Shown here: piece by piece, positions 2,401 to 61,764 of the stretch
How positions within the stretch are numbered: position 1 is the first letter of the stretch
How the letters are laid out: each line of letters begins with the position of its first letter
DNA from: Thunnus maccoyii
Lineage: Eukaryota > Chordata > Actinopteri > Scombriformes > Scombridae
NCBI RefSeq assembly: GCF_910596095.1
Contig: NC_056550.1
Span: 7,836,501 to 7,900,500, forward strand
Length of the DNA: 64,000 bases
Direction: 5' to 3'
The notes under the pieces: model-generated
The model's input: the letters and a program-made list of their open reading frames with translations, nothing else
Database searches by the model: none
Told to the model about the DNA's origin: nothing
Position numbers and translations under genes: made by a program

Positions 2401-3093
2401 CTCATCAACTTTATCCTTGTTTCCCTCCTTTTCATGAATGTTCTCAGAGTCCTCTTCCTCACTGAACTCATCAAACTCATCATTCTCCTCCTCCTCAAAA
2501 CCTTCATCCCACTTCTCTTCCTCATTAAGTTCATCAAACTTGTTGCCTTCATAAACATCCTCAAACTCCTCCTCATCACTACTGAACTCCTGCTCTTCCT
2601 CAAACTCCTCCTCATCATCAGTAGTGTTCTCAAACTCCTCCTCTTCATCATATCTGTACACAAACTCCACTTCACCACTACTGAACTCCTGCTCTTCCTC
2701 AGATGACTCCTCTTCATAATATCTATACTCAAACTCCTCCTCTTCATCAGTAGTGCTCTCAAACTCCTCCTCTTCATTATATCTGAACTCACACACCACT
2801 TCACCACTACTGAACTCCAGCTCTTCCTCAGACGACGACTCTTCATAATAGCCATACTCAGACTCCTCCTCTTCATCAGTAGTGCTCTCAAACTCCTCCT
2901 CTTCATTATATATGAACTCAAACACCACTTCACCACTACTGAACTCCAGCTCTTCCTCAGACGACGACTCTTCATAATAGCCACACTCAGACGACTCCTC
3001 TTCATCGCTGCTGGACTCCTCCCCCTCGCTGAGTCTTGGCAGCAGGCTCTGGTTAAAGGTGGAGATGGACACGTGCATCGGGCTGCCGTAAAC
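2149..3093 (-). CDS. Repeat-built last exon of the unit 1 kinase
   Basis: The exon starts at VYGSPMHVS after acceptor 3095-3094. It then encodes about three degenerate 43-aa repeats (129-bp period, for example CAGTAGTGCTCTC at 2748 and 2877) carrying blocks such as [22 protein letters not shown] and LEFSSGEVV. These are followed by one 27-aa unit around [20 protein letters not shown]. Many Ser residues sit before Glu/Asp, as in CK2 sites. From about 2400 downward the GGA-rich strand is read as Arg/Lys codons, giving a basic C-terminus ending at 2149. The basic end may be real or the product of an old frame slip in the GGA tract. Confidence 0.75.
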   Translation of the reverse strand, partial: VYGSPMHVSISTFNQSLLPRLSEGEESSSDEEESSECGYYEESSSEEELEFSSGEVVFEFIYNEEEEFESTTDEEEESEYGYYEESSSEEELEFSSGEVVCEFRYNEEEEFESTTDEEEEFEYRYYEEESSEEEQEFSSGEVEFVYRYDEEEEFENTTDDEEEFEEEQEFSSDEEEFEDVYEGNKFDELNEEEKWDEGFEEEENDEFDEFSEEEDSENIHEKEGNKDKVDEQEEQQQLAQQNQATLRRRRGRRRRKRRRGGRKKGRKGKKIRRGRGRGKKRRWCKRRRRRRRERRRKNRGCRRRRRRRGGKPRR

Positions 3094-15459: not shown

Positions 15460-16077
15460 TCAGTTCTTCAGAACACCTGTGCACGTCTCCACCACATTTC
15501 TTGTCTTTGTGTGTGCTGAATTGTAGCGCTGCTCATGGACACTTGCTGGGTTTAGGTATGGGGTCATAAGCCATTTTATCAGGGGATATCCTGAGTCTCC
15601 CAGCAACCTCCCAGGGTATCTTCCTGCCTCAAAGTCTCTCCAAAGGCTAGACTGCTTGAGGATGACGCTGTCATGCTTTGCCCCTGGCCATTTGATCACA
15701 GCATTTGTAATAACAAGGTCAGCATCACGCACAACCTGTGCGCTGATTGAGTGGCATCCCTTCCTGTTCACAAAATCATTTCATTGTCTTTGGGTCCCTT
15801 GATTCTGATGTGGGTGCTATCTACACAGCCAAGTATGTCAGGGAAACTGTTAGAGCTTTTGACGGGTCATGTTTTGTTGCTCAGGCTGAGTTGGAAACTT
15901 AACATAGAAGTTTAAGCGCTGACATGATGATAGTGCGACTGATCTTATTGCTCTACATACAGTAGATTTATGCACTTGAATTGAATTACCAACCAGGTTT
16001 TGAAATATCTTATTGTTAGATACACTTGAAGGGAATGGTAGCAAAAACTCGCTTACATCCAAATGGCTGGATTCCAT
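15460..16077 (-). pseudogene. PIF/Harbinger (HARBI1-like, DDE_4) transposase relic (unit 1)
   Basis: The minus strand encodes the HTH-like VHKSTVCRAIRSVALS with CQRL and VKFP. Next come GCVDSTHIRIKGPKDNE (first catalytic Asp), KWPGAKHDS, LLGDSGYPL (second Asp) and RNVVE (Glu). A one-base loss after KDNE shifts the frame, and a TGA follows GVLKN, so the gene is dead. It is convergent with the SANT-like gene, as in Harbinger elements. I could not place the terminal repeats. Confidence 0.85.
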
Positions 16078-20653: not shown

Positions 20654-23600
20654 TCACTCACACATTTCATCCAGACTTTTAATAGCTTCTTTTTTAGAGT
20701 GCCTTCTCCACTCTTTGGGAATTTCACCAAAGCCCTGGAATTTTAAGTTATAGTGGTCTTCCAGCTGCTTTTGAAATCGACATACAAACCATTTCCAATA
20801 TGTCAGCTTAGACTCATCAGCGGTAATTCTCCAGTTAGCATATTTTGGGCCACCAGTTCGGTACAGTTTAAAGGGAATGGTCTTTTCTGAATCACGATGA
20901 GGGTAAAAACTGTGATCACTTGCAACTTCTGTTGTGCAGAAATTGATGCACATCTCCACTGTGCCTCTATAGTGCAATCCATTGATTGCAGAGGGTCGAT
21001 GGAAAGGCACGCTGTGATCGTCAGGACTGTGATTTTCCAGGGTGTTGGTACAAACAGCTGCACAGAATGGACACGTTACCCAGCAGCAGTTACACAGCTG
21101 ATCGATGAGGATTTGATCTGGCTTCAGCCTGAATTCTTTCATCTTACCCAATGAGACGCTGCTCATCTCGTCAATGATGGATGCAAGTCCTTTCTCTATC
21201 TCTTCTTTAAGAAAGTCAAATTTGTTTATGTCACTGAAATTTTGAGCACAAATGGTGTTGAATGTTAGCTCATCATTAAGCAAACTGGAAAATTTCTTCA
21301 GCCACATGTCTGTGTCTCCTCTCTGAGCTTTGACTTTCTCTGTTGCAGTGAACAAAGCTTGACTCACAAGTTTATTGATGTCGTCAACATTTTTCTTGAG
21401 TATATTCAGTGCTTTATCTTTGTGTTTTCTGAAGATGTATTTCTTTACTTCCTTTCCTATGAAATTTTCTGCTCGGTTCCTTGGATGTCGGATGTAGTTG
21501 ATGTAACTATCAAAGTCTTCTTTCTCTGCCAGTGACTTCAACACATATTTCTCCAAGTTTAACCTGTTCCCATTGAATGCTGGGACACTGCACCTCATCT
21601 CTCCAGCGAGGTCAATGGCGGTCTTGTTACAGACAGCTTCAACAGTGGAAACCTTCAGTTTTTCACAGATCATTTCTCCAAGCACAACAGCAGATGAGTT
21701 TCCTTTGCAGAAGCTTTTGAAGATGTTGTAATATTGTATTTTTTTGCTTTTCACAAAAGTTACAGCATCATTGTTCATTTTGAATTTGTTGTGGGACTCT
21801 GAAATCCAATTCCCTGCCATGTCAAACACATACAGTAAGAGATCAATTGTAAACTCCTTCTTTAGGGCATATTTCCTGTTTGATTCAAATTCCGTCACTT
21901 TTTCTTTGACATTTTTGGCCACCTCTTGCAAGTAAGTTGGACTGTAGCCTCTTGTAGCTACAGGTTTGCTCTTAATTGCATGAAGGGACTGTTGTTCAAC
22001 ATCTTCAATGAGGGATCTGATCAGCACTTGTTCTTCATATGGAAAATCTCCTCTTGGTTTAAGTGCTTCTTTTTGTCGTATTGACCGAAATCCAAATAAT
22101 TTTTTAACAGACACCCAGGTAGTTGTCAATATTCCTTGCCCTTTTGTGTTCCTGTTTTCCCTCCTACTGTCTTCGGATTGTTGGCTTTTGTTGCAGAGCT
22201 CTTGGTGCTTGTTCAGGGTAACATAGTCAAAATAATCCCCAATCATTGATATGTCTTTGTAGCTCTCACAACTCTTTGAATCATCGATAAGAGACCATTC
22301 AATACCAAGCTCCTGCAGGATGGACATTTGTTCTTGTTCCAGGTTGATGTCCTCAATAGGTTTAGTGTCTCCAGTTAATTCAGTAATCCAGCCACTCCAA
22401 ACAGAGTCAAACTGTTTTTCAAGTTCCTCTTCATCTTTGGCCTTGTCTTTTAACTCATGAGCGAGTTCTTTGCTCTTTTGTAGCAGCATCTTTTCAAACT
22501 CTGTCTTCTTGTCATCTAGCTTTTTACAGGCATTCTTCTGCTGGATGACCTCATCCAGTTTTCTTTTAACTCCTCTCACCTGATCATCATGGAACTCTTT
22601 GATTTTGGTTTCAAATCGGCCTCGCCACTGAACCAACATTTCTTTGTCTCTGTCATCATCAAAGTACACTTTCATATCTTTTTTGATTTCTTCATATGTT
22701 TCACTCATTTCTTTAAAAAGATAACCAAGGTCAACTTTGTCAAGTTTTCCATTTTCAATTCTGTTATAAAGCTGGTTCTCAATAGTCAACATGTTGCTCC
22801 TCAGGGCCCAGGTCCAGTTCCCATACTGGACCTCAAGTTTTCTGTACACTGCAATTTCAAGTGTGTTTTTGAAGCTGAAAACAAAGTTTTCTTTCAGAAG
22901 AGCATTCCACAGGTCCTTTATGTTGCTTTTGAACTGTGAAAGAGTTGTCCCTTTAGACTGTGAAGCTTTAGAGAGGATGATGTTCTTTAAATCCTGGATG
23001 CTCTCACTATAACCTGGATTTGGAGGAGCCATTGGTGGACTTCCCTCCCACAGTTGGGCAAAGTATTTCACATCTTTTTGCACATCAAATGCGATGACAT
23101 CATTGAAGCACTCAGCATCACAAACCTCCTCTTTGGCAGCTAGTTTAGTCATCTGGTCCAATTTTTCTTGCAGTCGTCTCTTTCCATCCATGTTTTTCTC
23201 TGCAGCTGCAATATCTGTAACATTCTGGTGAACAAACACACAACTTGGAGAAAGTTTAACTCTCTTCATCCTCATGAAAGCCTGAACAACAATCTGCAGG
23301 ACATCTTGTATTTCAGCTGGATTCTCTCCAAAGATGTTGATCAATGTCATGTTTCCCAGACCAACGACAAATGTCGCCAGTTCATTGTCGTGGTGAAGAG
23401 TGGCGTTACCTGCCAACTCAAGAGCACGCAGTCCTTCAGTGTCCACCACTAGAACATAGTCAAACTGAAAGTCTTTCTTCATCTCCTCTGACACTTTGAC
23501 CAGCTGCATGAAGGCACCCTTGGTGCACCTGCCAGCACTTACTGCAAACTGTAATCCAAACATGGCATTGAGCATGGTTGATTTTCCACTGCTTTGTACA

Positions 23601-25510
23601 CCCAAAACTGACAAAACAAAAACTCTCTGATCTCCCAGTTTCTTGATGACTTCATCTAAAAGACTAGAGATCCATGTTAAAGGCACATGACCTGCATCAC
23701 CATCCATCAGCTCCATTGGGTGTCCTGATATCATCAGCTCTGCAGCCAGCTCAGGGTATTTAGACCAGTCAGTTTCTTCCATCTTTGTTTGTTCCTGCAG
23801 AGATTTATGGGCTTCATAGATCTGTCCAATTTCTCTAAAGATGTGCTCTAAGCCAAAAGTAGCTGACTGCAGTTTTGCTGATATTTTCTCAAGCTCAGTT
23901 TGCTTGCTTATTAGCTGATCAGATTTGTCATGTTTCTTCTTCAAATCCAAGACTTCAGACCATTTTTCATCATATTTTTGGAGAATTGAAGACAGATCAT
24001 CTGTTGAAAGTGCATCTAGTAAGATCTGAATCCATTTCAGGAAATACTCTCTCTCCTCTGATGGCAGAGACGAAAGGCTTTCAGTGAACAACTTCATCAG
24101 TTCACTACATGAAGCAGCACGTTGTTCTTGACGTATTCTCTCCAGTTCCTGTTGTTTTTTACATTTCTCCTTCTCAATGTTCCCTTTGAGGTGATACTGT
24201 TCTTTGTTTATTTTGCACCAGTCATGCCACAGTTGGCCTTGACAAGGCAGATATTCATCTTTGATCTTTGAAACATCCATCTCTTCAAGTAAATTCACTA
24301 TTTTCATAGCAGCACATTTTCCTTCTTGGCAGACTGTGTCATCTTCATCCACTCTGATTCCAGAGACCTCAGCCATGGTTTCTAGCTGGAAGAATGTATG
24401 TGGTCCAGACAAGATTTTTCCAATGATTCCTCTCAGTTCTTCAGAAACATCTGACCAGCTTCTGTCTTTCAGACCCATTTTGTATTTTCCCTCTTTCATC
24501 TCAGCTGCACCACAATCATTATCAACAATGAGACAAATGAGAGGTTTTGGAGACTTGAGAAGGGCTGAGATAACTGTCCAACTTTGGTCACTTTTCTCCA
24601 GAGTTGGTAACAGAACAACATTGACCGAAGATTTTTCCATCAGTATTTTTCGCTGTTTTTCAATCATCAGAGCATCACCATGAAGATTACAGAAGGCAAT
24701 GCAGTCACTGAAGGCATCATTGGGTTTTCCAGCAGGGCAGTACCATGCGACCTCTGCCACACCGTCCAACAAATGGCGAGATTTGGTGCTTCCTGGACAG
24801 TTTCTATGGAAGAAGGTGCTGTGACGGTCGTTGATCAAAGTGTTCATCAGCTGAGATTTAGACAGTGATAGCGTACCAAGACGGAAAAATGACACCATGG
24901 GTGTCTCAGCTTTGCAGATGGGCATACTCTTCATGGTGACAGTGTTTGAATCATCTTTGGTTTGAGTTATCTTCCAGCTTTTCCTTATTTGTCTGAATGT
25001 CCACAGAGGACACTCAACATCCATTGTGACTGGGTCAGGAACAAGCAAAGGTAAGGCGTACTGACACTGTGATAGCTTTGTAATCATGTTCTGCTTAAGA
25101 GAGCTGTCTGAGCAGTGAAATACTGCCATTTGAACATCCATTGGATGCACATGAGACTGTTTTGTCTGATCCGAGTCTATTTTGGCAGTAAATAGAGCAT
25201 CAAAGTCGTCATTGTCTGTTTCTGAGTTCTGTGGAACAGGCTTCAAGTGGCTCACCTCAGGACTGTCTTGTTTTACAGGAATATATCTGGCTCTGTAATC
25301 TAACATCATCAGCCTCTGAAGAAAATTGTTAGCTAGATCTTTTTCAGACAGGTCATGGTGCTGTTTTACAGGTCGACTTATTCTAAGAAAATCTGCTGGT
25401 GTCAATTTCTGATGATATTTTTCTTGAAGGTGAAGTCTGCTGAGCAGTGTTTCACTTTCTTGTTGATATTGCTCCTTCCTGTTGATCTCTTCAAAAATCT
25501 TTTCTGACTT
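20654..25510 (-). CDS. Giant last exon of the unit 1 GVIN gene (VLIG GTPase body)
   Basis: A single 4857-nt exon, as is usual for GVIN genes, begins after the acceptor at 25512-25511 and ends at TGA 20656-20654. It opens with the family hallmark around LTPADFLRI near residue 423. A long coiled-coil-like stretch (about residues 800-960) precedes the G domain. The P-loop GVQSSGKSTMLNAMFG starts at residue 1024 (base 23602), the G3-like DTEG is at 1077, and the G4-like FVHQN is near 1146-1150. All three are intact, so nucleotide binding is plausible. The C-terminal part has a Cys/His-rich cluster (CPFC near residue 1866, then paired His and Cys) like the zinc-binding tail region seen in GVIN proteins. 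No stop or frameshift was found. Confidence 0.97.
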   Translation of the reverse strand, partial: KSEKIFEEINRKEQYQQESETLLSRLHLQEKYHQKLTPADFLRISRPVKQHHDLSEKDLANNFLQRLMMLDYRARYIPVKQDSPEVSHLKPVPQNSETDNDDFDALFTAKIDSDQTKQSHVHPMDVQMAVFHCSDSSLKQNMITKLSQCQYALPLLVPDPVTMDVECPLWTFRQIRKSWKITQTKDDSNTVTMKSMPICKAETPMVSFFRLGTLSLSKSQLMNTLINDRHSTFFHRNCPGSTKSRHLLDGVAEVAWYCPAGKPNDAFSDCIAFCNLHGDALMIEKQRKILMEKSSVNVVLLPTLEKSDQSWTVISALLKSPKPLICLIVDNDCGAAEMKEGKYKMGLKDRSWSDVSEELRGIIGKILSGPHTFFQLETMAEVSGIRVDEDDTVCQEGKCAAMKIVNLLEEMDVSKIKDEYLPCQGQLWHDWCKINKEQYHLKGNIEKEKCKKQQELERIRQEQRAASCSELMKLFTESLSSLPSEEREYFLKWIQILLDALSTDDLSSILQKYDEKWSEVLDLKKKHDKSDQLISKQTELEKISAKLQSATFGLEHIFREIGQIYEAHKSLQEQTKMEETDWSKYPELAAELMISGHPMELMDGDAGHVPLTWISSLLDEVIKKLGDQRVFVLSVLGVQSSGKSTMLNAMFGLQFAVSAGRCTKGAFMQLVKVSEEMKKDFQFDYVLVVDTEGLRALELAGNATLHHDNELATFVVGLGNMTLINIFGENPAEIQDVLQIVVQAFMRMKRVKLSPSCVFVHQNVTDIAAAEKNMDGKRRLQEKLDQMTKLAAKEEVCDAECFNDVIAFDVQKDVKYFAQLWEGSPPMAPPNPGYSESIQDLKNIILSKASQSKGTTLSQFKSNIKDLWNALLKENFVFSFKNTLEIAVYRKLEVQYGNWTWALRSNMLTIENQLYNRIENGKLDKVDLGYLFKEMSETYEEIKKDMKVYFDDDRDKEMLVQWRGRFETKIKEFHDDQVRGVKRKLDEVIQQKNACKKLDDKKTEFEKMLLQKSKELAHELKDKAKDEEELEKQFDSVWSGWITELTGDTKPIEDINLEQEQMSILQELGIEWSLIDDSKSCESYKDISMIGDYFDYVTLNKHQELCNKSQQSEDSRRENRNTKGQGILTTTWVSVKKLFGFRSIRQKEALKPRGDFPYEEQVLIRSLIEDVEQQSLHAIKSKPVATRGYSPTYLQEVAKNVKEKVTEFESNRKYALKKEFTIDLLLYVFDMAGNWISESHNKFKMNNDAVTFVKSKKIQYYNIFKSFCKGNSSAVVLGEMICEKLKVSTVEAVCNKTAIDLAGEMRCSVPAFNGNRLNLEKYVLKSLAEKEDFDSYINYIRHPRNRAENFIGKEVKKYIFRKHKDKALNILKKNVDDINKLVSQALFTATEKVKAQRGDTDMWLKKFSSLLNDELTFNTICAQNFSDINKFDFLKEEIEKGLASIIDEMSSVSLGKMKEFRLKPDQILIDQLCNCCWVTCPFCAAVCTNTLENHSPDDHSVPFHRPSAINGLHYRGTVEMCINFCTTEVASDHSFYPHRDSEKTIPFKLYRTGGPKYANWRITADESKLTYWKWFVCRFQKQLEDHYNLKFQGFGEIPKEWRRHSKKEAIKSLDEMCE

Positions 25511-28500
25511 CTGTAAATAATAAGTAAATAATTATATACTGTATGTAAAAATGAGAACTTCAAATACTGGGTTATAAAGTAAATAGGCTTTTATTTTGAA
25601 TTCCTTACCTCATCCTTGTTTCCATCCACATCCGTATGTAAGATACCTACAGTACAACAATAAACTGCATTAACAGAGGGACAGAGCAATGTACTACTGG
25701 TACTGTGGTGTCTGTTATTAATGCTGAATTATTAGTTTATTTAGTTTTCTTTTTTCTTGACAGGGTTCAAATGAGACTGAAAGAGCCATGCAAAGTTTCA
25801 GTTAAAGAGTGAGTACACCATCTAATTCTGCTTGGTCCCTCCCTTTAATAAACTAAAAGAAATACAACAGAGAAGGTGGGAGGTGATCATGTCAATTTGA
25901 GGTGTGGCCTCATGGGGCACAGGGGACTCTGACTAATAAGAGTGGGGGATATCAAAAACTGATTCTGGTTCTGATTCAATATACCAGGGCCAGAATCACA
26001 AATACCAATACTTTTTATGATTAAAAGTCCAACTGAAATTACATTTAGTTATCCAATTTTTCAGTCAAAATGTTGTTTTTTTAAAAATGTATTTAAAAAT
26101 GAAGATAATGCAGAAGTACCAAAAACTGCAGTTCCTTGAATGGCCACTTGAGGCTGGCTCCAAAAGCGAGTCAATCCCCATAGACCCCCATATTAAAATG
26201 CCCAACTTTATAGCAGTAGTAAACATACTTACAGTGTGGGACAAAAAAAGGTTTTGGTCTCTATAGCTAATTTTCCCTTTCATGACAACTGTACGGGTTG
26301 TGAACTTTTTTATAATTCATCTGTTCAAATTTTATTAAGTCGTAAAGTTATGCATAACTAAGGACGTGACTATTTTTAGTGACAGGTTTGTTTGGCTTGT
26401 TTCAGCAACCAGGCTTCATTCGGCCCTCCTCAGCTCCACCTCTTTGCCCATTTTTGAGAAAGCAGGAGTTCGGTGGAGTCAGGCACTGCCAAGATGGCGA
26501 TGGCTGGAGCCACCCACTTTGAGCTTTAAAACCGCTCTTCAGAGACCAATGGGTGATGTCACGGTGTCTACGTCCAAATTGTTTACAGTCTGTGGCCCTG
26601 ACACCGGCAGGGCAACGAAAGAGTAGCAGTTCTAACAAACTTGTGCTGTAGCTACAAGTCATGAACAAGTCTGTGGGTCATGTTGTGTAGCAGACTGCTG
26701 TCTAGCTTAGTCTGACTCTCTCATCTGCCTATGACAGAACGCTGATGCAAATGTTTGATTGGCTGAATGAAAAGAAGTTGTCTATCTACATAGATGGAGA
26801 GCAAACAGTACTCCATCAGATTAATGCAAAAAATCCTGAAAAAAATCCTGAAACCAAAAAGTCAAGCATTTTTCTCTTTGGTTTCTGATTTTTTCTCAAA
26901 GGAGAACACAGGACAAGTGATCTAGAGAGCAGATGTGTATGCTGTAGTAGACGAAACAAGATGCAATTAAATTTCAGTTGGACTTTAACAGGGTCACTTC
27001 TGATCTGAAAAATCAGTGCTTTGTAAAAACTTGATGTTACCAGCTTCATTACTATCATAAGTCATGCTTACTAGATGTCTCCCAATCATGGATCAAAGCT
27101 GCAGGTCTGGCAAGCAAACAGCAAGGCCACTTAAAACTGATGAATAAAGAACTGAAGACACTTATCAGGCTAAAACTCACAGATGAACTCTCCTGGCCTG
27201 CTCAGTGTGGAATTTAAAATTGAGAGCAGATCAAAATCTTGAAGTCACTGACCATGCCTTTAATAATCTGCTTTCATTCTGAGCATAATGTATTTTTTTC
27301 CTCTGATGACACTTGTGCAGTGTACCAAGCCCCCACCAATAGCATTGGGCTATATGGCAATTTTGTCTTAGGTCACATGATGCCCACTGGCCCACAAAGA
27401 CTTTTTCCCATACACAACTATATGAAAGGAATGGCTTTAAAACAATGAATAACTTATCCGATCAAGAAAATCTTGAAATAACTTTTTGTACTATCAGAAT
27501 GTGATAAATAAAATTTGGAAAGTCAAGAGGAGCTCTATCAGTAAATAATTTTGTGCTCTTCATGTGTTTGGGGAGTCAGAGGAAGTCTCTAAGGTTGTGC
27601 TCAGACAGACATTAGTTCTGCATTAAGAAATGCATCCCCCTCAGGAAAGTGAATGATGCGATTCCACTGATGCAGCAGGGGCTTTTCAAAATGATTGGCC
27701 TCTGCTCATTTCATCCATCAGATGGCACACTGAGCCTGATTTTAAGAGGTTAATACTTTTACTACTTAACTTGCTTAACTGTTGACAAAATGACTAGTTT
27801 GAGTCAAGACCTAATTAGAAGTTTACAACTCAAAAAACATTTTGGGGTGTAGTTACTCTTTTAAATCTTGATGAAATGTTTACCTTTCTCATTTGTCGCA
27901 AATGTTATCACAGGCTTGACGTCGGGCTCCCCACCTGATGTTGTGCTTTCATCGTTCGTCTCTGAGTGTTCAACGTCACCTGGTTCATTTGCTGGATCAC
28001 ACTGAGAAAACAAGTGATTTTATTTACCCTTTAGATCACCAGGTTATTACAACAGAGGTTCTGCTTTCTGGTAACAGATTTAGACTAAACATGTTTCTAG
28101 ACATTAAAGGGGAACAGAGCAACCCCTGTAGCTAACACACAAAGATCACAGTTTAATCTTTACTGAAAATGTTTATGTAATATGTTGAACAACAGGACAC
28201 AACAATATCTTTTTACTTAAAAGTATGAGTTCTTGCCTTTGTTAAATTGATGGCAGGAAAAAAGTTAAAATTATCTCAAAATTGTTTGATTTTGTGTCAT
28301 TTTTATATCAGTATTTATGGTAGCACTAATTACCCCAAGAGTGCTCAATTTACCCCATCCCCATGCTCATTTTATCCCTATCTTGGGGTAAGTTGTGCCA
28401 TAGGACTAATTTTTTTGATGGCTCACTGTTCTAAAACTATAATAATTAGATAACTTGTTTTAATTTCTACGGATACACAACAACCTGAGGTATATATAAT

Positions 28501-31500
28501 AACGATTATTTGAAACAAATATACTTTTATTTTGCAGTAAAATCATCAAATGTAAAAAGTGCCTCACGTTTCCCTGTTCTCCCCTACTGTCCAAAATTGA
28601 GGAATTGACAGGTTAAAGTCAGCTATCATGTCTTATAGAAATGCATAGAGAGGCCCAGACAGAGATAATAAATGCAATATTTAAGTTGTTATTACATTAC
28701 AAATGGTTATATCATGCCAGTCAGACTACAGTAAATCACATATTCCAAAAATAAAAAATAAATGCCTGGATGAAACAGACATATTACTAGATTTGTATGG
28801 GAATGTCAGCTACAGGAATTCTGGTAAAGCTTTATTGAATGTATAAGTCATGTAACTGGTAAAATACATCCTCTTCAAGCCAAACTCTATGTGGTTGGAA
28901 TTTGCCCTGAAGACTTGTCACTTTACAGCAATCATGGCTTATTGACTTTTCACTCCTCTGGAAAAAAACGGACATACCTTCTACAGGAATGTAGAGAAAG
29001 GAACTTGAAGCCTGTCTTGCTTTGGAGTAATTTTTGTATATTGTTAAAAGAACAGATGCAAACTTTACTTGTTTATGAATTTTTGGAAAGTCACACTTTT
29101 GAATGATTTAGCTTTTTTTCCTTTTTGCTTTGGGAGAGAGAATATGTACCAAGTGTTTAAATGTACATGTTCTATATGTTAAAACTCCAATAAAAAATAT
29201 CTTTTTAATAAATGTTATTATTGCTAATCAACAAAATTAATTGTGTTGAAGTCACTCTCCAAAGCATCCAATTTGGTTGTAAATTAAAGTGTAAGAGCTT
29301 ACCTTCAGCTTGATTTCAGATGTATTCTTCTCCAACTCATCTGCTGGAGGAAATGTGGAAAAAGCAGATTGCACATTGGATTTTAATCTTACTTTTTAAA
29401 AAATGCTGCTGGATGTTATGATACCTATAATTTGACAATGTGCTGTGTTGCATTTTCTGCTGTTTTGTTTGGTCATGCACTGCATTTTCACAGCCTTGAT
29501 CCATCAGTTTTCTATATTCACTTAACCTGTACAAGGTATAGGGCAGTAGTAGGCAAATAGCAGCCTGTGGACAAAACTGGGCCCTCCTTTCTGTCAATGA
29601 CAGTACTTTCCTTCAACCACAAATGAAGCAGGCCACTGCTTATTGTGTGAGGATAAGCTATCAATTACATTTATGTCTCATGTATGTTCATGAGTATTTT
29701 TTTGTCAAATCAGTATCAAAACAAACAAAACATATTAAAAACATATGGGGTTGTTTTTTCACCGTGCAGGTAAAACACATACAATTTGAAGCTACTTCAT
29801 GGTAAGTTTACAGTAACAGATACAGAACATCCTGGAAACATCAACAAAATTAACCCTTTTGTTTGTACAATCACAATCTCAGCAATAATTTTGTTGTGAG
29901 TTCAGTGTTTTCAAATTTAGAAAAATGAAACCCAAATTGTAATCAAGATTAATTCATTAAATCTCACCTGTTTGATTTTGCTGAGACACAGAGGAATCAA
30001 TCCTTTCTTCTTTGTTGGATTTGTGGTCCAGCAGGTCTTTCTGTTCTTTATTGTCATCACACACCAGTCCACTGTAGCAGTGTGGATCATTTTCAGAGAC
30101 CATGACATCTATTTTTTTCAATAATGCTATTATCTCATTTTCATCCATCATACTGTTTTTACATGTGTGGTACGTTTTTTCAGTGAAACTGTTATAGACT
30201 TTCAGGTCTGTCACTGCACTTTCACATTTTTCATCTGACTTATGAGTCACAACTGTCATTAAATAAGCAAGTGACTCTTTCCCAAAAGCTTTTTCTAACC
30301 ACTGCACTCCTGAACTGTACTGGCTGTTATGCAGACCGTTTGTTAACAGTAAGAGAAAGGCATGGACTCCCCTGTTTAATGGGAATTTGTCAATGTTTTG
30401 AAGACCAAGCATGTTAATGACAGATATGTACCGACCACAAAAATCATACAGTTTGGACGAAAACTGTTCAACATTTGTTTGCTCGTCATGGTCAAATAAG
30501 ATGTTTTTTGATCCAATCTCAATGGAATTTGTGTCACCAACTAACACAAGTGTGAGCTCAGGTGTCACTGAAATAAAATAAAAGAACAACATCACTATGG
30601 TTTAATCATTGACACAGCACACTTTTTGACATTTTTCTGAAATTCAATACAAAAAAGGGAATACATGAAAGTATTTCTTACATTCTTTGATTCCTCTTGC
30701 AACACTCTCGCTCTCCCCTGCAGTCGGCTCACTAATGTCACTGCTGCTTTCATTGTGGACCTCTTTAACATCATCAACCTCCTCTGCTGAATGGTCAAAA
30801 CCTCCAAATATGAGAGAATAGTGTATTTAGTTTTCATAATTCTCTACAGTGTTTGAAACTGGATTTAGATATAATCTGAAAAACCTGTCACTGTACAATC
30901 AAATTCATGATGTTCTTAAAGTTCAAAAGTCAATTCCAGAAACTTAATTTCCAGTGTAGGCTTTATTTTTTTAGATTTCACAAATTCAAGAAACTATATT
31001 CAAATTCTTAAAATTCAATGAGCTCAATTTAGATCTAGAATTTCAGGTCAAGTCACTGAGACTGAGATTGCTCAAAACGGCTTGGTTAAATCATGGATGC
31101 ATTAAGAAGAACTGGATACTATGTTCCAAGATATCACCCCATTCATTCCTATGACGGTTGCTCACTGGGCACATACGCAGAAAAAGGGTCCGACCCAATA
31201 CCCACATTGATCAAGTGTCTACTTGTGTGATGTATTTGCTGTAACTGCCAACAATGCCAAAGTGCTCATTAAGACAGCGAGTGTGTGTTGGAAATTTATC
31301 TGTGCTCACTGGGACAAGTTTGATTAATAAGGACATGAGCTATTGGTTTTATTTCATTTCTACATTTTAGGGCTCACAAACAGAAAACACACATTCAGGA
31401 GCTGCAGGAGAAATAAAATTTAAAATATACTGTAAATGTTATCTAGAGGCATGTAGGCCTAGTGTACACAAAAAAAGTCGATAACCTTTTTAAGGAAGGA

Positions 31501-33085
31501 ACATATTTCTCAAAGTGATTGATTAAAGGATAGCCTCTGATATTGACAATGTCAGAAATGCAATATTATTCTTATTAGTATCATGAAAAAGAATTGATTG
31601 TTAATAATGATTTATGGAGATTCTGTCATAACTATGGAAACACAAAGTGTTCAGTATTAAATAGATTTTAAAAAGATATTATGAAATATAAAAATCATAT
31701 GAATACTTTTCATAATGACATATTTTATTTCATACTGTCACTTGCAATTGTGGACTTTGGACATCCACGGGACAGACGGGCTTCCTTGTGCTTCTGCATT
31801 TTTGGACCCACAGAGCATGCTCGCTGCCAAGCTGTTTGACAGCGAGCACATTAGAGACTTCCTCTGACTGAGCTTGCTAACTTCCTGTCAGCTCCCCACA
31901 CACATGAATGATAAAATGATTTAATGATGCGGCTTGTCTTGAATTTGTGTTTGTGACACTCAGAAATAAAACATGACTACATAATTTTTGAATAGGCCTT
32001 TTGATATTTTAATTTTCTATCTGTTTGTGAACCCTAAAATATATATACTAAATAAATAATTATATATGCTGGAAATAGTTTTGAATTTTACGACTGACCA
32101 CTAATTGACTACCTTAAGAGAAATTCAGATAGATGATTTTGAAAGTAAAATATTTCAGTGCTGTAAATTCAGAGGTATTTAATGTTCAACATCAGATATT
32201 CATTTGCTTATAAAATGAAAGTGTGTATGGCTCATCTCTTCCATATTCACCTTTCGTATCTGATGTAGTTGGTGCTTCAAATGTGATTTCAGACTCTTCT
32301 ATTGTTGTTCCTTCATTGTTGCTGTCTGAGTGTTCAGCTTCACTGGGTTCATTCACTGGACCAAACTACAAAAACAGATTTTTTTACAATAAATTCCACA
32401 GGTTAGACCCACTGACAACATGAAACCAAGAAAACAGCCTCTAGATAAATATAGATAATGTAAGATAAGAAGTTGAAGATTAACAACATGCAATGGTGTT
32501 GCAATTAAGAGAGTGATAAAACATGAAATAGAAGCAAGAAAAAAAAAACTGAAATGCAAGTAGGATTGTATCAAAGTGAAAACAACGTTAAGAGTTATGG
32601 AATCAAAACCTCTTTAGTTCAGGATGAAAACAAAATGAGAATAGCTCAGATCTTTCTGGAAAGTTGGATGTACAGATGTGCTACACCACCAAAAGTTTCT
32701 ACTTGAATTTAAAATTTTGGAGAAAAGGAACTTAGGATCCACTTCTGTCAAATTATAACCTGATTAACTTCAGAAAAACAGGATACTGTTAGAAAATGAA
32801 TGCAGCTGTATGTTGAAGACAATAATGGAGATGAAGAGATCTTTCCTTTACCTTGGTTACAGCTGCACTCTCCTCTAACCCCTCAACTGCAGTGCAGGCT
32901 AATGTAAGAAAAACAGAATACACATGATGAGCATCAAAAACATATGTTTGATTATCTAGCTGCTTGAGGTTTATTAAACTTTATTTTCAAACCTTTAAAT
33001 TACCTTTGTCATTTGCCACAGAAGTTACAGACTTGACTTCAGGCTCTCCTCCAGCTGCTGTGTTGTCTTTGTCCTCTGCCTCCAT
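20654..33085 (-). CDS. GVIN/VLIG-type interferon-induced very large GTPase with N-terminal pseudo-AIG1 domain (unit 1, complete, 9 coding exons)
   Basis: Exons on the minus strand, each bounded by AG and GT: 33085-33004, 32898-32852, 32365-32251, 30801-30682, 30567-29968, 29343-29303, 28001-27884, 25646-25609 and 25510-20654. The sum is 6018 nt with all phases agreeing (2005 aa plus TGA). Residues 1-121 are an acidic Glu/Asp/Ser/Thr linker. Residues 122-320 are AIG1/GIMAP-like. Residues 321-387 are another acidic linker, and 388-2005 are the VLIG body. Proteins of this family are large cytosolic/nuclear GTPases induced by interferon; their molecular job is poorly known. The ATG at 33085 follows a good 3' splice site at 33102 and a four-codon uORF. 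An ISRE lies upstream at 33661. The small exons are supported by phase and splice signals, not by transcripts, so the first four are the least certain. Confidence 0.88.
26021..26988. mobile_element. Non-autonomous inverted-repeat element in a GVIN intron (unit 1)
   Basis: The left end TTAAAAGTCCAACTGAAATT (26021-26040) is mirrored by the right end AATTTCAGTTGGACTTTAA (26970-26988). Both ends carry TTAA, which would suit a piggyBac-like target site. It contains a segment near 26490-26600 (AAGATGGCGATGGC, GGGTGATGTCAC) that recalls a dispersed fish repeat. It has no transposase and lies between coding exons 7 and 8. Confidence 0.6.
29968..30567 (-). CDS. Degenerate AIG1/GIMAP-like domain exon of the GVIN gene
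   Basis: A 600-nt exon with acceptor AG at 30569-30568 and donor GT at 29967-29966 keeps phase 1 on both sides, so it could be skipped or shuffled without breaking the frame. It encodes about 200 residues with AIG1 family order: a beta-1/P-loop position (LVLVGDTNSIEIGSKNIL), then INMLGLQN, then HAFLLLLTNG, then VVTHKSD at the G4-like place. It ends in a GIMAP-type helix with YHTCKNSMMDENEIIALL and IDVMVSEN. The canonical GxxxxGK[S/T] is lost, since the Lys/Ser of the P-loop are replaced, so GTP binding by this domain is doubtful. The assignment to AIG1 is by pattern, not by search. Confidence 0.8.
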
Positions 33086-33446: not shown

Positions 33447-33580
33447 CTTTGTTTTGTGTTCTCATAGCTCTGCCTGCTCTGTATAGATATGACTGTCTGT
33501 CTTGTCAGAAATACTTCAAGATCACAATAAAAAAAATCAGTACTAGGTGTGGCCTTCACGAACAGTCCCTCCTCCTTTTC
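33447..33580 (-). other. Probable non-coding first exon of the GVIN gene (3' boundary only)
   Basis: A consensus donor (exon ...AAAG then gtgagt) sits at 33447/33446. It pairs with the acceptor at 33104-33103 just before the coding start. The 5' end is a guess placed about 30 bp after the TATA-like motif near 33607. There is no transcript evidence. Confidence 0.45.
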
Positions 33581-33660
33581 ACAGATCTGATGTAAAGTGA
33601 TGGGTATAAGGAGCAGTGAAGTCCACCATCCCCATTTCCTCTGAATCAGTGATGACAAAT

Positions 33661-33672
33661 GAAAGTGAAACT
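33661..33672 (+). promoter_or_regulatory. ISRE (interferon-stimulated response element) upstream of the unit 1 GVIN gene
   Basis: GAAAGTGAAACT matches the ISRE consensus GAAANNGAAACT exactly. It lies about 580 bp upstream of the GVIN ATG and about 215 bp upstream of a likely non-coding exon's 3' end. A weak TATA-like CTTATA (minus strand, about 33604-33610) lies about 50 bp closer to the gene. The spacing is right for an interferon-driven promoter on the minus strand. Confidence 0.75.
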
Positions 33673-36311: not shown

Positions 36312-37379
36312 TTTTTCAATTCAATTCTGGGCCAAATCATAACAAAAGAGCAGGTCTAGACTGTACTCTTTAATTTACAGAAACCCAACAATTCCCCCAT
36401 GAGCAAGCGCTTGGCGACAGCGGCAAGGAAAAACTCCCCTTTAACGGGAAGAAACCTGGAGCAGAACCGGGCTCTAGGTGGGCGGCCATCTGCCTTGACC
36501 GGTTGGGTTGAGAGAGAAAGAGGGAGGAAGAGGGGGACAAAGAGAAGCATAATAACAACAATAATAATGATGAAAATAATGGAGACATGACCAGTAATAA
36601 TAATAGCAATAATACAATCCCTGCACCATCTCCGCAGTCATGGCCCTCGATGTCCACAGCCTGGACTCTGGATTATCCTGTGAGACAAGAAAGCACCGTG
36701 AGACTGTAGGAACCACAAATAAGTCTGCATTCTGGGAGCTCAGTGTTCTAGTGGGTTAATACAGTACTACGAGCTCTTTAAGACATGATGGTGTCTGACC
36801 ATTAAGGGCTTTGTAGGTGAGGAGAAGAGCTTTAAACTCTACCCTGGATTTTACAGGAAGCCAGTGCAGAGACGCTAAAATGGGAGAAACATGATCTCTT
36901 TTCCTAGTTTTTGTCAGTAGACGTGCAGCTGCATTCTGGACCAGCTGGACAGTCTTTAGAGACTTGTTAGAGCAGCCTGATAATAAGGAATTACAGTAAT
37001 CCAGCCTAGAAGTAACAGATGTGTGGACTAGTTTTTCTGCATCTTTTTGAGGACATGTCTTGATCAAAGATAACTTCCTCACAGTGGAGCTGGAGGTCAG
37101 AGTAATGTCATCTAGAGCAGCTATATCATTAGATAATGTGTTTCTAAGGTGTTTAGGACCAAGCACAAAAACTTCAGCTTCGTCTGAGTTTAGTAGCAGA
37201 AAATTGCAGGTCATCCAGGTCTTTATGTCCTTAAGGCATGCTTGGAGTTTAGTTAACTGATTGAATAAATAGGATTTAAAGCAGCTTAATGCACTTCTTT
37301 TAATGCCAATTAAATGTTTCAGTCTCTGTAATAAGATGTGATGGTCAATGGTGTCAAATTCAGCACTAAGATCTAACAA
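36312..37379 (-). mobile_element. L2-like non-LTR retrotransposon, 3' part (unit 2)
   Basis: Same insertion as in unit 1. A 73-bp difference relative to unit 1 (bases 1286-1358 there) happens to join the frames, giving a 207-codon ORF (37379-36756). It runs through SRLDYCNSLLSGCSNKSL and ASLHWLPVKSRVEFK, which are typical RT C-terminal region motifs. The catalytic YxDD-type box is still absent. Confidence 0.8.
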
Positions 37380-37544
37380 GACAAGTACATACTTTGTGTC
37401 CAGCAGCCGGCCTGTGTTTCTCTGCTGCTGCAGCTGCTGTTGCCACGGAGACCACTGGGCTGCAGGTGGGAAACCATCCTATGGAAACGGTGGGGTGATG
37501 GTGAAGAGATAGTGTTCTATGGTTTGTCTCCTTAGTTTTCCTGT

Positions 37545-38046
37545 TCTTCTTCTCCTCCTCCTGCAACTTCCCCCCCCCCCCCATCCTCTCTTCTTCCCCC
37601 TCCTCCCCTTCCCCCACCCCATTAAGTTCTTAAAACTTGTTGTTGCCCTCATAAACTTCCTCCCACCCTCATGCCCCATCCTCCTCCACCTCATCTTCTT
37701 GGTTTTCCACTTTTTCTCCTCCTCCTGCAACTCCCCCCCCCCATCTTCTTTTCCTTCCCCTCCTCCCCTTCCCCCACCCCATTAAGTTCGTAAAACTTGT
37801 TCTTCCTCCCACCCTCATACCCCTTTCTCCTCCACCTCATCTTCTTGGTTTTCCTCCTCTTCTCCTCCTCCTCCTCCTGCAACCTCTGTTTTTCCTCCTC
37901 CTCTCCCTTCTTCTCCTCCTCCTCCTCTTGCACCATCTTCTCTTCTTTCCCCTCCCCCTGCCCCTCCGTATCTTCTTCCCCTTCCTCCCCTTCTTTCGTC
38001 CTCCTCTCCTCCTCTTCCTCCTCCTCCTCCTCCTCCTCCTCCTCAG
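37545..38046. repeat. Homopyrimidine/homopurine tract (unit 2)
   Basis: This is the counterpart of the tract in unit 1, with small length changes in the poly-C and CCT runs. Its upper part encodes the basic tail of the kinase. Confidence 0.8.
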
Positions 38047-39024
38047 TGTGGCTTGGTTTTGTTGAGCAAGTTGCTGCTGCTCCTCTTCCTCATCAACTTT
38101 ATCCTTGTTTCCCTCCTTTTCATGAATGTTCTCAGAGTCCTCCTCCTCACTGAACTCATCAAACTCATCATTCTCCTCCTCCTCAAAACCTTCATCCCAC
38201 TTCTCTTCCTCATTAAGTTCATCAAACTTGTTGCCTTCATAAACATCCTCTGGTTCCTCCTCCTCAAAACCTTCATCCCACTTCTCTTCCTCATTAAGTT
38301 CATCAAACTTGTTGCCTTCATAAACATCCTCTGGTTCCTCCTCCTCAAAACCTTCATCCCACTTCTCTTCCTCATTAAGTTCATCAAACTTGTTGCCTTC
38401 ATAAACATCCTCCACTTCCTCCTCCTCAAAACCTTCATCCCACTTCTCTTCCTCATTAAGTTCATCAAACTTGTTGCCTTCATAAACATCCTCAAACTCC
38501 TCCTCATCACTACTGAACTCCTGCTCTTCCTCAAACTCCTCCTCATCATCAGTAGTGTTCTCAAACTCCTCCTCTTCATCATATCTGTACACAAACTCCA
38601 CTTCACCACTACTGAACTCCTGCTCTTCCTCAGATGACTCCTCTTCATAATATCTATACTCAAACTCCTCCTCTTCATCAGTAGTGCTCTCAAACTCCTC
38701 CTCTTCATTATATCTGAACTCACACACCACTTCACCACTACTGAACTCCAGCTCTTCCTCAGACGACGACTCTTCATAATAGCCATACTCAGACTCCTCC
38801 TCTTCATCAGTAGTGCTCTCAAACTCCTCCTCTTCATTATATATGAACTCAAACACCACTTCACCACTACTGAACTCCAGCTCTTCCTCAGATGACGACT
38901 CTTCATAATAGCCATACTCAGACTCCTCCTCTTCATCGCTGCTGGACTCCTCCCCCTCGCTGAGTCTTGGCAGCAGGCTCTGGTTGAAGGTGGAGATGGA
39001 CACGTGCATTGGGCTGCCGTAAAC
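37837..39024 (-). CDS. Expanded repeat exon of the unit 2 kinase
   Basis: 1188 nt against 945 nt in unit 1; the 243-nt excess is exactly three 81-bp units. It encodes the 43-aa Glu/Ser/Tyr repeats, then four 27-aa repeats separated by EEEEPED or EEEEVED. An Arg/Lys-rich terminus follows. Confidence 0.78.
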   Translation of the reverse strand, partial: VYGSPMHVSISTFNQSLLPRLSEGEESSSDEEEESEYGYYEESSSEEELEFSSGEVVFEFIYNEEEEFESTTDEEEESEYGYYEESSSEEELEFSSGEVVCEFRYNEEEEFESTTDEEEEFEYRYYEEESSEEEQEFSSGEVEFVYRYDEEEEFENTTDDEEEFEEEQEFSSDEEEFEDVYEGNKFDELNEEEKWDEGFEEEEVEDVYEGNKFDELNEEEKWDEGFEEEEPEDVYEGNKFDELNEEEKWDEGFEEEEPEDVYEGNKFDELNEEEKWDEGFEEEENDEFDEFSEEEDSENIHEKEGNKDKVDEEEEQQQLAQQNQATLRRRRRRRRRKRRRGGRKKGRKGKKIRRGRGRGKKRRWCKRRRRRRRERRRKNRGCRRRRRRRGGKPRR

Positions 39025-51203: not shown

Positions 51204-51934
51204 TTAGGCTATACTGGTAAGAATTTGTCTGCTTTTAACCCTGATTTGTAAAATATATAGCCAAAATAATGTAGGCAATGATTTTTGATTGAAACCTCTT
51301 TCCAAACAGGCCCATCGGTTCTTCAGAACACCTGTGCACCTCTCCACCACATTTCTTGTCTTTGTGTGTGCTGAATTGTAGCGCTGCTCATGGACACTTG
51401 CTGGGTTTAGGTATGGGGTCATAAGCCATTTTATCAGGGGATATCCTGAGTCTCCCAGCAACCTCCCAGGGTATCTTCCTGCCTCAAAGTCTCTCCAAAG
51501 GCTAGACTGCTTGAGGATGACGCTGTCATGCTTTGCCCCTGGCCATTTGATCACAGCGTTTGTAATAACAAGGTCAGCATCACGCACAACCTGTGCGCTG
51601 ATTGAGTGGCATCCCTTCCTGTTCACAAAATCATTTTCATTGTCTTTGGGGCCCTAGATTCTGATGTGGGTGCTACCTACACAGCCAAGTATGTCAGGGA
51701 AACTGTTAGAACTTTTGACGGGTCATGTTTTGTTGCTCAGGCTGAGTTGGAAACTTAACATAGTAGTTTAAGCGCTGACATAATGATAGTGCGACTGATC
51801 TTATTGCTCTACATACAGTAGATTTATGCACTTGAATTGAATTACCAACCAGGTTTTGAAATATCTTATTGTTAGATACACTTGAAGGGAATGGTAGCAA
51901 AAACTCGCTTACATCCAAATGGCTGGATTCTATG
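51204..51934 (-). pseudogene. PIF/Harbinger transposase relic (unit 2)
   Basis: Same insertion as in unit 1 but with a different lesion: the frame is intact through KDNENDFVNRKGC, while the codon after THIRI is TAG. The end is also open further than in unit 1 (GVLKNRWACLERG). The DDE residues are all visible. Confidence 0.85.
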
Positions 51935-56771: not shown

Positions 56772-59700
56772 TCACTCACACATTTCATCCAGACTTTTAA
56801 TAGCTTCTTTTTTAGAGTGCCTTCTCCACTCTTCGGGAATTTCACCAAAGCCCTGGAATTTTAAGTTATAGTGGTCTTCCAGCTGCTTTTGAAATCGACA
56901 TACAAACCATTTCCAATATGTCAGCTTAGACTCATCAGCGGTAATTCTCCAGTTAGCATATTCTGGGCCACCAGTTCGGTACAGTTTAAAGGGAATGGTC
57001 TTTTCTGAATCATGATGAGGGTAAAAACTGTGATCACTTGCAACTTCTGTTGTGCAGAAATTGATGCACATCTCCACTGTGCCTCTATAGTGCCATCCTT
57101 TGATTGCAGAGGGTCGATGGAAAGGCACGCTGTGATCGTCAGGACTGTGATTTTCCAGGGTGTTGGTACAGACAGCTGCACAGAATGGACACGTTACCCA
57201 ACAGCAGTTACACAGCTGATCGATGAGGATTTGATCTGGCTTCAGCCTGAATTCTTTCATCTTACCCAATGAGACGCTGCTCATCTCGTCAATGATGGAT
57301 GCAAGTCCTTTCTCTATCTCTTCTTTAAGAAAGTCAAATTTGTTTATGTCACTGAAATTTTGAGCACAAATGGTGTTGAATGTTAGCTCATCATTAAGCA
57401 AACTGGAAAATTTCTTCAGCCACATGTCTGTGTCTCCTCTCTGAGCTTTGACTTTCTCTGTTGCAGTGAACAAAGCTTGACTCACAAGTTTATTGATGTC
57501 GTCAACATTTTTCTTGAGTATATTCAGTGCTTTATCTTTGTGTTTTCTGAAGATGTATTTCTTTACTTCCTTTCCTATGAAATTTTCTGCTTGGTTCCTT
57601 GGACGTCGGATGTAGTTGATGTAACTATCAAAGTCTTCTTTCTCTGCCAGTGACTTCAACACATATTTCTCCAAGTTTAACCTGTTCCCATTGAATGCTG
57701 GGACACTGCACCTCATCTCTCCAGCGAGATCAATGGCAGTTTTGTTACAGACAGCTTCAACAGTGGAAACCTTCAGTTTTTCACAGATCATTTCTCCAAG
57801 CACAACAGCAGATGAGTTTCCTTTGCAGAAGCTTTTGAAGATGTTGTAATATTGTATTTTTTTGCTTTTCACAAAAGTTACAGCATCATTGTTCATTTTG
57901 AATTTGTTGTGGGACTCTGAAATCCAATTCCCTGCCATGTCAAACACATACAGTAAGAGATCAATTGTAAACTCCTTCTTTAGGGCATATTTCCTGTTTG
58001 ATTCAAATTCCGTCACTTTTTCTTTGACATTTTTGGCCACCTCTTGCAAGTAAGTTGGACTGTAGCCTCGTGTAGCTACAGGTTTGCTCTTAATTGCATG
58101 AAGGGACTGTTGTTCAACATCTTCAATGAGGGATCTGATCAGCATTTGTTCTTCATATGGAAAATCTCCTCTTGGTTTAAGTGCTTCTTTTTGTCGTATT
58201 GACCCAAATCCAAATAATTTTTTAACAGACACCCAGGTAGTTGTCAATATTCCTTGCCCTTTTGTGTTCCTGTTTTCCCTCCTACTGTCTTCGGATTGTT
58301 GGCTTTTGTTGCAGAGGTCTTGGTGCTTGTTCAGGGTAACATAGTCAAAATAATCCCCAATCATTGATATGTCTTTGTAGCTCTCACAACTCTTTGAATC
58401 ATCGATAAGAGACCATTCAATACCAAGCTCCTGCAGGATGGACATTTGTTCTTGTTCCAGGTTGATGTCCTCAATAGGTTTAGTGTCTCCAGTTAATTCA
58501 GTAATCCAGCCACTCCAAACAGAGTCAAACTGTTTTTCAAGTTCCTCTTCATCTTTGGCCTTGTCTTTTAACTCATGAGCGAGTTCTTTGCTCTTTTGTA
58601 GCAGCATCTTTTCAAACTCTGTCTTCTTGTCATCTAGCTTTTTACAAGCATTCTTCTGCTGGATGACTTCATCCAGTTTTCTTTTAACTCCTCTCACCTG
58701 ATCATCATGAAACTCTTTGATTTTGGTTTCAAATCGGCCTCGCCACTGAACCAACATTTCTTTGTCTCTGTCATCATCAAAGTACACCTTCATATATTTT
58801 TTGATTTCTTCATATGTTTCGCTCATTTCTTTAAAAAGATAACCAAGGTCAACTTTGTCAAGTTTTCCATTTTCAATTCTGTTATAAAGCTGGTTCTCAA
58901 TGGTCAACATGTTGCTCCTCAGGGCCCAGGTCCAGTTCCCATACTGGACCTCAAGTTTTCTGTACACTGCAATTTCAAGTGTGTTTTTGAAGCTGAAAAC
59001 AAAGTTTTCTTTCAGAAGAGCATTCCACAGGTCCTTTATGTTGCTTTTGAACTGTGAAAGAGTCGTCCCTTTAGACTGTGAAGCTTTAGAGAGGATGATG
59101 TTCTTTAAATCCTGGATGCTCTCACTATAACCCGGATTTGGAGGAGCCATTGGTGGACTTCCCTCCCAGAGTTGGGCAAAGTATTTCACATCTTTTTGCA
59201 CATCAAATGCGATGACATCATTGAAGCACTCAGCATCACAAACCTCCTCTTTGGCAGCTAGTTTAGTCATCTGGTCCAATTTTTCTTGCAGTCGTCTCTT
59301 TCCATCCATGTTTTTCTCTGCAGCTGCAATATCTGTAACATTCTGGTGAACAAACACACAACTTGGAGAAAGTTTAACTCTCTTCATCCTCATGAAAGCC
59401 TGAACAACAATCTGCAGGACATCTTGCATTTCAGCTGGATTCTCTCCAAAGATGTTGATCAATGTCATGTTTCCCAGACCAACGACAAATGTCGCCAGTT
59501 CATTGTCGTGGTGAAGAGTGGCGTTACCTGCCAACTCAAGAGCACGCAGTCCTTCAGTGTCCACCACTAGAACATAGTCAAACTGAAAGTCTTTCTTCAT
59601 CTCCTCTGACACTTTGACCAGCTGCATGAAGGCACCCTTGGTGCACCTGCCAGCACTTACTGCAAACTGTAATCCAAACATGGCATTGAGCATGGTTGAT

Positions 59701-61764
59701 TTTCCACTGCTTTGTACACCCAAAACTGACAAAACAAAAACTCTCTGATCTCCCAGTTTCTTGATGACTTCATCTAAAAGACTAGAGATCCATGTTAAAG
59801 GCACATGACCTGCATCACCATCCATCAGCTCCATTGGGTGTCCTGATATCATCAGCTCTGCAGCCAGCTCAGGGTATTTAGACCAGTCAGTTTCTTCCAT
59901 CTTTGTTTGTTCCTGCAGAGATTTATGGGCTTCATAGATCTGTCCAATTTCTCTAAAGATGTGCTCTAAGCCAAAAGTAGCTGACTGCAGTTTTGCTGAT
60001 ATTTTCTCAAGCTCAGTTTGCTTGCTTATTAGCTGATCAGATTTGTCATGTTTCTTCTTCAAATCCAAGACTTCAGACCATTTTTCATCATATTTTTGGA
60101 GAATTGAAGACAGATCATCTGTTGAAAGTGCATCTAGTAAGATCTGAATCCATTTCAGGAAATACTCTCTCTCCTCTGATGGCAGAGACGAGAGGCTTTC
60201 AGTGAACAACTTCATCAGTTCACTACATGAAGCAGCACGTTGTTCTTGACGTATTCTCCCCAGTTCCTGTTGTTTTTTACATTTCTCCTTCTCAATGTTC
60301 CCTTTGAGGTGATACTGTTCCTTGTTTATTTTGCACCAGTCATGCCACAGTTGGCCTTGACAAGGCAGATATTCATCTTTGATCTTTGAAACATCCATCT
60401 CTTCAAGTAAATTCACTATTTTCATAGCAGCACATTTTCCTTCTTGGCAGACTGTGTCATCTTCATCCACTCTGATTCCAGAGACCTCAGCCATGGTTTC
60501 TAGCTGGAAGGATTTATGTGGTCCAGACAAAATTTTTCCAATGATTCCTCTCAGTTCTTCAGAAACATCTGACCAGCTTCTGTCTTTCAGACCCATTTTG
60601 TATTTTCCCTCTTTCATCTCAGCTGCACCACAATCATTATCAACAATGAGACAAATGAGAGGTTTTGGAGACTTGAGAAGGGCTGAGATAACTGTCCAAC
60701 TTTGGTCACTTTTCTCCAGAGTTGGCAACAGAACAACATTGACCGAAGATTTTTCTGTCAGTATTTTTCGCTGTTTTTCAATCATCAGAGCATCACCATG
60801 AAGATTACAGAAGGCAATGCAGTCAGTGAAGGCATCATTGGGTTTTCCAGCAGGGCAGTACCATGCAATCTCTGCCACACCGTCCAACAAATGGCGAGAT
60901 TTGGTGCTTCCTGGACAGTTTCTATGGAAGAAGGTGCTGTGACGGTCGTTGATCAAAGTGTTCATCAGCTGAGATTTAGACAGTGATAGCGTACCAAGAC
61001 GGAAAAATGACACCATGGGTGTCTCAGCTTTGCAGATGGGCATACTCTTCATGGTGACAGTGTTTGAATCATCTTTGGTTTGAGTTATCTTCCAGCTTTT
61101 CCTTATTTGTCTGAATGTCCACAGAGGACACTCAACATCCATTGTGACTGGGTCAGGAACAAGCAAAGGTAAGGCGTACTGACACTGTGATAGCTTTGTA
61201 ATCATGTTCTGCTTAAGAGAGCTGTCTGAGCAGTGAAATACTGCCATTTGAACATCCATTGGATGCACATGAGACTGTTTTGTCTGATCCGAGTCTATTT
61301 TGGCAGTAAAAAGAGCATCAAAGTCATCATTGTCTGTTTCTGAGTTCTGTGGAACAGGCTTCAAGTGGCTCACCTCAGGACTGTCTTGTTTTACAGGAAT
61401 ATATCTGGCTCTGTAATCTAACATCATCAGCCTCTGAAGAAAAGTGTTAGCTAGATCTTTTGCGGACGTGTCATGGTGCTGTTTTACAGGTCGACTTATT
61501 CTAAGAAAATCTGCTGGTGTCAATTTCTGATGATATTTTTCTTGAAGGTGAAGTCTGCTGAGCAGTGTTTCACTTTCTTGTTGATATTGCTCCTTCCTGT
61601 TGATCTCTTCAAAAATCTTTTCTGACTTCTGTAAATAATAAGTAAATAATTATATACTGTATGTAAAAATGAGAACTTCAAATACTGGGTTATAAAGTAA
61701 ATAGGCTTTTATTTTGAATTCCTTACCTCATCCTTGTTTCCATCCACATCCGTATGTAAGATAC
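56772..61764 (-). CDS. GVIN/VLIG-type very large GTPase, unit 2 copy, 3' exons only (cut by window end)
   Basis: Visible exons are 61764-61727 (13 codons with the split Gly, GILHTDVDGNKDE) and the giant exon 61628-56772. The exon with the second acidic linker would begin a few bases past 64000, so the gene is partial here. The giant exon has the same length as in unit 1 (4857 nt) with no stop. The P-loop GVQSSGKS, DTEG and FVHQN are identical. I counted about 21 amino-acid changes by eye, several near the N-terminal edge (LSEKDLANNF to TSAKDLANTF) and the Cys-rich C-terminus (INGLH to IKGWH). It should be functional. Confidence 0.95.

Follow-up and report, generated by a model that had tools for sequence, protein, structure and literature searches.

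The minus strand of a 64,000-nucleotide stretch of the Thunnus maccoyii genome (contig NC_056550.1, positions 7,836,501 to 7,900,500; hereafter the window) carries a predicted GTPase gene of nine exons between 33085 and 20654. This locus raises the question of whether a domain resembling the AIG1/GIMAP GTPases and the body of a GVIN/VLIG very large GTPase are parts of one and the same gene. We favour, with a probability of about 0.6, a single interferon-type GVIN/VLIG gene which is predicted to have a skippable GIMAP-like pseudo-domain in its N-terminal extension.

The nine exons join to 6018 nt encoding 2005 amino acids with a single terminal stop, and GT donors and AG acceptors border all eight introns. 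The start codon at 33085 and the stop ending at 20654, both proposed in an earlier reading made from the sequence only, were found in place, and the coordinates which that sequence-only reading gave for the junctions 30682/30567, 29968/29343 and 25609/25510 are right. It had also pointed to the matching of every phase, which turned out to say little: since entry and exit phases are all 0 or 1 and 28 of the 128 subsets of exons 2 to 8 stay open (exons 1 and 9 fixed; 12 with exon 5, 16 without it), phase agreement is weak evidence for this particular chain. Phase matching was therefore dropped as proof of the gene model after the subset count. Exons 4 and 5 can be removed singly or together with the frame intact, since both have phase 1-1; symmetrical 1-1 exons are the usual form for shuffled exons. 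Splicing exons 1-5 straight to exon 9 leads to a stop at residue 328.

Acidic linkers are encoded by exon 1 (33004..33085, 82 nt, with the start codon, residues 1-28), exon 3 (32251..32365, 115 nt, phase 0 to 1), exon 4 (30682..30801, 120 nt) and exon 7 (27884..28001, 118 nt, phase 0 to 1). Their acidic character was as proposed, with 26-27% aspartate and glutamate compared with 7-9% lysine and arginine. Exon 7 is related to exon 3 by its 5′ part and to exon 1 by its 3′ part. At the DNA level it aligns with exon 3 over 89 columns (76% identity, E=3.7e-11), covering the 5′ part of exon 3 and spanning 22 nt of the intron before its acceptor. The alignment with exon 1 has 66 columns (76% identity, E=8.1e-7) and runs through the donor; it takes in the 3′ part of exon 1 together with 4 intronic nt. 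For the encoded linkers, 2000 shuffles were made for each of the 21 pairs of small exons, and pairs equalled in fewer than 40 of the 2000 were listed. The similarity of exons 1 and 7 and that of exons 3 and 7 was equalled in none of the shuffles; the other 19 pairs did not reach this cut. The AIG1-like exon 5 is thus bracketed by the duplicated linker, with exons 1 and 3 upstream and exon 7 downstream, which makes one gene the better reading. The fused gene had been proposed on other grounds, and the bracketing argues for it as a prediction; exons 1 to 9 quite probably form a single transcript. The remaining small exons are exon 2 (32852..32898, 47 nt), exon 6 (29303..29343, 41 nt) and exon 8 (25609..25646, 38 nt), each with phase 1 to 0. 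Exons 2, 4 and 6 were called from consensus borders and phase alone, and the 5′ border of exon 4 is ambiguous, as inspection by eye shows other AG acceptors in frame.

Exon 5 (29968..30567, 600 nt) encodes residues 122-322. The profile search suggested for this region returned AIG1 as the top Pfam family, with 23.8 bits (E=3.2e-5) over profile columns 81-206 of 212. A 172-residue form of the exon scored 22.0 bits (E=1.2e-4) and its second half alone 24.9 bits (E=1.5e-5, columns 82-206). The likeness to AIG1 thus stood, as a match with a score below the curated cut-off of 27. DUF2492 (E=0.0072) and DUF6860 (E=0.037) also match weakly. A search of the PDB up to E=10 returned four sequences, all of GIMAP2 (E 0.07-0.12). 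The exon sits in AT-rich DNA in an open frame of 214 codons. When the flanking DNA, with that frame excluded, was resampled 300 times by a first-order Markov model and read in the three frames of the sense strand, the longest frame was shorter every time and reached at most 173 codons.

The AIG1/GIMAP family is defined by five G motifs, G1 to G5, in the available text of PMC8201404. A motif scan of exon 5 found neither G-x4-GK[ST] nor DTPG, and the exon accordingly falls outside this definition. It retains a bare DxxG (DFCG, residue 163) and a GIMAP G4-like THKSD at 229. The stretch GDTNSIEIGSK presumably occupies the P-loop position, judged by the consensus for this motif. A Pfam search with the first 66 residues gave no match up to E=10, and the sole G-x4-GK[ST] among the 2005 residues is that at 1024 in the GVIN body. 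Both observations agree with the label "dead" given to this domain earlier, and from its motifs exon 5 very probably encodes a pseudo-G domain.

The GVIN/VLIG body proposed for exon 9 (20654..25510, 4857 nt with the stop) was confirmed. This one exon encodes 1618 amino acids and contains both URGCP-type domains above the Pfam cut-off: PF25496 (URGCP, E=1.8e-107) at about residues 508-792 and PF25683 (URGCP GTPase, E=1.9e-133) at about 828-1222. The latter has the P-loop GVQSSGKS at 1024, the G3 motif DTEG at 1077 and HQNVTD at 1148. A P-loop-like, altered stretch, GTLSLSKS, is present at residue 599. For human GVIN1, two large-GTPase domains are predicted, preceded by an N-terminal domain and a flexible linker and followed by a C-terminal domain (preprint PMC11974893, available part). 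By its sequence, GTLSLSKS looks like the degraded P-loop of the first large-GTPase domain, which would then be dead; even with the AIG1-like domain left out of the count, one dead and one live G domain may be combined in the GVIN body. The notion of one dead fold joined to one live fold consequently stands for the dead AIG1-like domain and understates the body, with its two predicted large-GTPase domains of which one is possibly degraded. Against the PDB, the giant exon gave one weak match, GBP2 (E=0.063).

Upstream of the first ATG, at a distance of 574 nt, an element resembling an interferon-stimulated response element (ISRE), AGTTTCACTTTCAT, is located at 33659..33672 on the minus strand. 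Read from 33672 to 33659, it is the only exact match in the window to AGTTTCNNTTTCNY, which we take to be the ISRE consensus; shuffled sequences contained a mean of 0.26 matches. To judge from this upstream consensus, the gene may be interferon-inducible. In salmon cells treated with interferon, the antiviral gene with the highest fold increase was a VLIG-1-like one (PMC4337061, in its available part), which is a different gene in a different species. Inspection by eye alone suggested an untranslated 5′ exon that is spliced and has its end near 33447. Poly(A) hexamers were considered as a sign of early transcript ending and dropped, as they are spread all along the stretch and also occur inside exons 5 and 9.

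Within the window a unit of about 35.8 kb is duplicated in tandem: the bases from position 1 recur from 35764 (copies A, 1-35763, and B, 35764-64000). The blocks of similarity are separated by gaps, and the six longest of them have identities of 97.96-98.82%. It could be a recent event or a false duplication in the assembly (an unmerged second haplotype). The nine-exon gene lies in copy A; copy B holds exon 8 (61727..61764, minus strand, identical encoded residues, same splice sites) and exon 9 (56772..61628, minus strand) within the window. Because copy B is a near-identical duplicate, its exon 8 is no independent support for this exon. The exon 9 proteins differ at 21 of 1618 residues (98.7% identity). 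Nonsynonymous divergence (dN) is 0.0058 and synonymous divergence (dS) 0.0245, a ratio of 0.24 (Fisher p=1.2e-6 on rounded counts), so exon 9 is under constraint between the copies, which we count in favour of the proposed gene. Some of the differences stand close together (residues 441/443/449, 759/760 and 1897/1899).

Several of the observations weigh against a single fused gene. The AIG1 score stayed under the cut-off in all three forms scanned, and a single-sequence AlphaFold2 model of exon 5 alone reached a mean predicted local distance difference test (pLDDT) of 36, which is not a confident fold. Pairs among exons 2, 6 and 8, expected to be related if the small exons form a repeating unit, failed the shuffle test. 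The window ends before any AIG1-like exon of copy B, and the copy comparison covers exons 8 and 9. At least one ISRE consensus occurred in 26 of 100 shuffles. Early polyadenylation may also take place, since twelve AATAAA/ATTAAA hexamers lie on the sense strand between exons 5 and 9. The 16 open exon subsets without exon 5 belong here as well. They are what would be expected if exon 5 were a decayed, disused GIMAP-like exon that lies within an intron of an otherwise ordinary GVIN gene and is skipped, for example by splicing exon 3 to exon 6, and the in-frame skipping of both 1-1 exons and the lack of a Pfam match in the G1-G3 half point the same way. A dead exon is, however, expected to gather stops, whereas exon 5 lies in an open frame longer than any obtained by resampling, and its acceptor and donor are consensus-like. 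We consider this explanation unlikely.

Slightly less likely still are two separate genes, an AIG1-like one comprising exons 1-5 that ends at an in-frame intron stop and a GVIN gene that starts within exons 6-9. A stop is indeed reached in frame at most four codons past exon 5 (open reading frame 29957-30601), and the hexamers downstream of this exon would suit such an end. The shared ancestry of exon 7 with exons 1 and 3 speaks against the separation, as do the first in-frame ATG of exon 9, which comes only at residue 455, and the lack of a second exact ISRE consensus ahead of exon 9 in the window. The likeness to AIG1 might finally be due to chance or to a generic P-loop fold, exon 5 then encoding an unrelated domain. 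The scores below the cut-off, the PDB matches at E about 0.1, the two weakly matching DUF families and the low pLDDT would all fit this idea, to which we give the least weight of the three: the half-domain matches with E=1.5e-5 over columns 82-206 of the 212 in the profile, AIG1 is the top family and GIMAP2 the sole molecule matched in the PDB, and none of eight other pieces of the window scanned outside exon 5 matched AIG1 up to E=10.

If the fused gene is real, its N-terminal extension probably gained a GIMAP-like G domain by exon shuffling. Upstream of the giant exon, small linker exons of phase 0 to 1 followed by exons of phase 1 to 0 recur, and the two 1-1 exons lie among them. Having lost its P-loop half, the AIG1-like domain is not expected to show ordinary GTP binding or hydrolysis; the expected source of GTP turnover is the G domain of the giant exon, whose motifs at residues 1024-1153 are intact. 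The pseudo-domain on its acidic tethers may serve as a protein-protein module that contacts the G domains of GIMAPs or other domains like itself and directs how the GVIN protein is recruited or assembled; the fraction of protein that carries it might be set by splicing. A tethered interaction module is the most likely role by analogy with GVIN1, with GIMAP2 and GIMAP7 and with zebrafish irgg-irgq1, and we put it forward tentatively. A bolder version, which we regard as improbable, is that a splice-regulated pseudo-GIMAP cassette docks on GIMAP scaffolds or membranes and nucleates a GVIN coat, so that two GTPase systems would act as one machine. A GIMAP-family domain in the N-terminal region of a GVIN, if true, would suggest that this region serves in targeting or assembly, and isoforms with and without the cassette would offer a natural comparison.

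The tuna protein shares with human GVIN1 the URGCP and URGCP-like GTPase domains, the P-loop GVQSSGKS and DTEG. In contrast, human GVIN1 is described as an intronless frame of 1808 amino acids in the available text of the 2025 preprint, while residues 1-387 of the tuna protein come from eight small exons that include the AIG1-like domain. The same source reports that GVIN1 coats Burkholderia thailandensis in the cytosol and predicts dimerisation via the large-GTPase domains (PMC11974893). The likeness to GIMAP2 lies in a stretch of 49 residues of exon 5 ending in THKxD and has the weak E-values given above. Unlike GIMAP/AIG1 GTPases, exon 5 has no P-loop, is apparently not a stand-alone gene and is joined to a giant GTPase. 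GIMAP2 dimerises on GTP binding and by itself binds but does not hydrolyse GTP, hydrolysis being promoted by GIMAP7 (PMC8201404, available part). GIMAP8 also has several (three) GIMAP-type G domains per polypeptide, according to the same text; in contrast to the tuna protein, all its domains are of one family and it has no GVIN body. A precedent for fused live and dead immune GTPases is zebrafish irgg-irgq1, in which a canonical G domain and a degraded one are apparently expressed as a tandem and a regulatory role was suggested; mammalian IRGQ likewise has three short N-terminal exons followed by one long exon (both from the accessible portion of PMC1297648). Both partners in irgg-irgq1 are IRG (immunity-related GTPase) proteins, whereas the tuna gene would combine members of two distinct families of immune GTPases.

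In the open-access literature searched, which is a partial one, VLIG or interferon-induced very large GTPase was not mentioned together with AIG1, and among the matches listed (titles and the starts of abstracts) there was no paper describing a VLIG-AIG1 fusion. Fish proteins predicted to have G domains of both the AIG1 type and the VLIG type may already be listed in InterPro. A peptide-pattern scan of viral_contigs with exon 5 returned no matches; with the GTPase segment two stretches were matched, neither of which encodes a relative.

Elsewhere in the window, several open frames on the minus strand at 3560-7579 resemble protein kinase exons, presumably of the AGC/MAST type, and one piece matches Pkinase weakly (E=0.093). 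A transposase-like open frame is located at 51204-51653 on the minus strand (DDE_Tnp_4, E=1.2e-26) and may be of the Harbinger type; its sequence recurs in copy A at 15460-15780, where the open frame is shorter. A fragment at 36756-37478, also on the minus strand, is weakly similar to the reverse transcriptase family RVT_1 (E=0.006, below the cut-off). An acidic repeat frame is found in both copies on the minus strand, with 440 amino acids at 37837-39159 in copy B, where it is open further upstream too, and 314 amino acids at 2149-3093 in copy A. By eye, its 19-residue unit is present four times in copy B and once in copy A.

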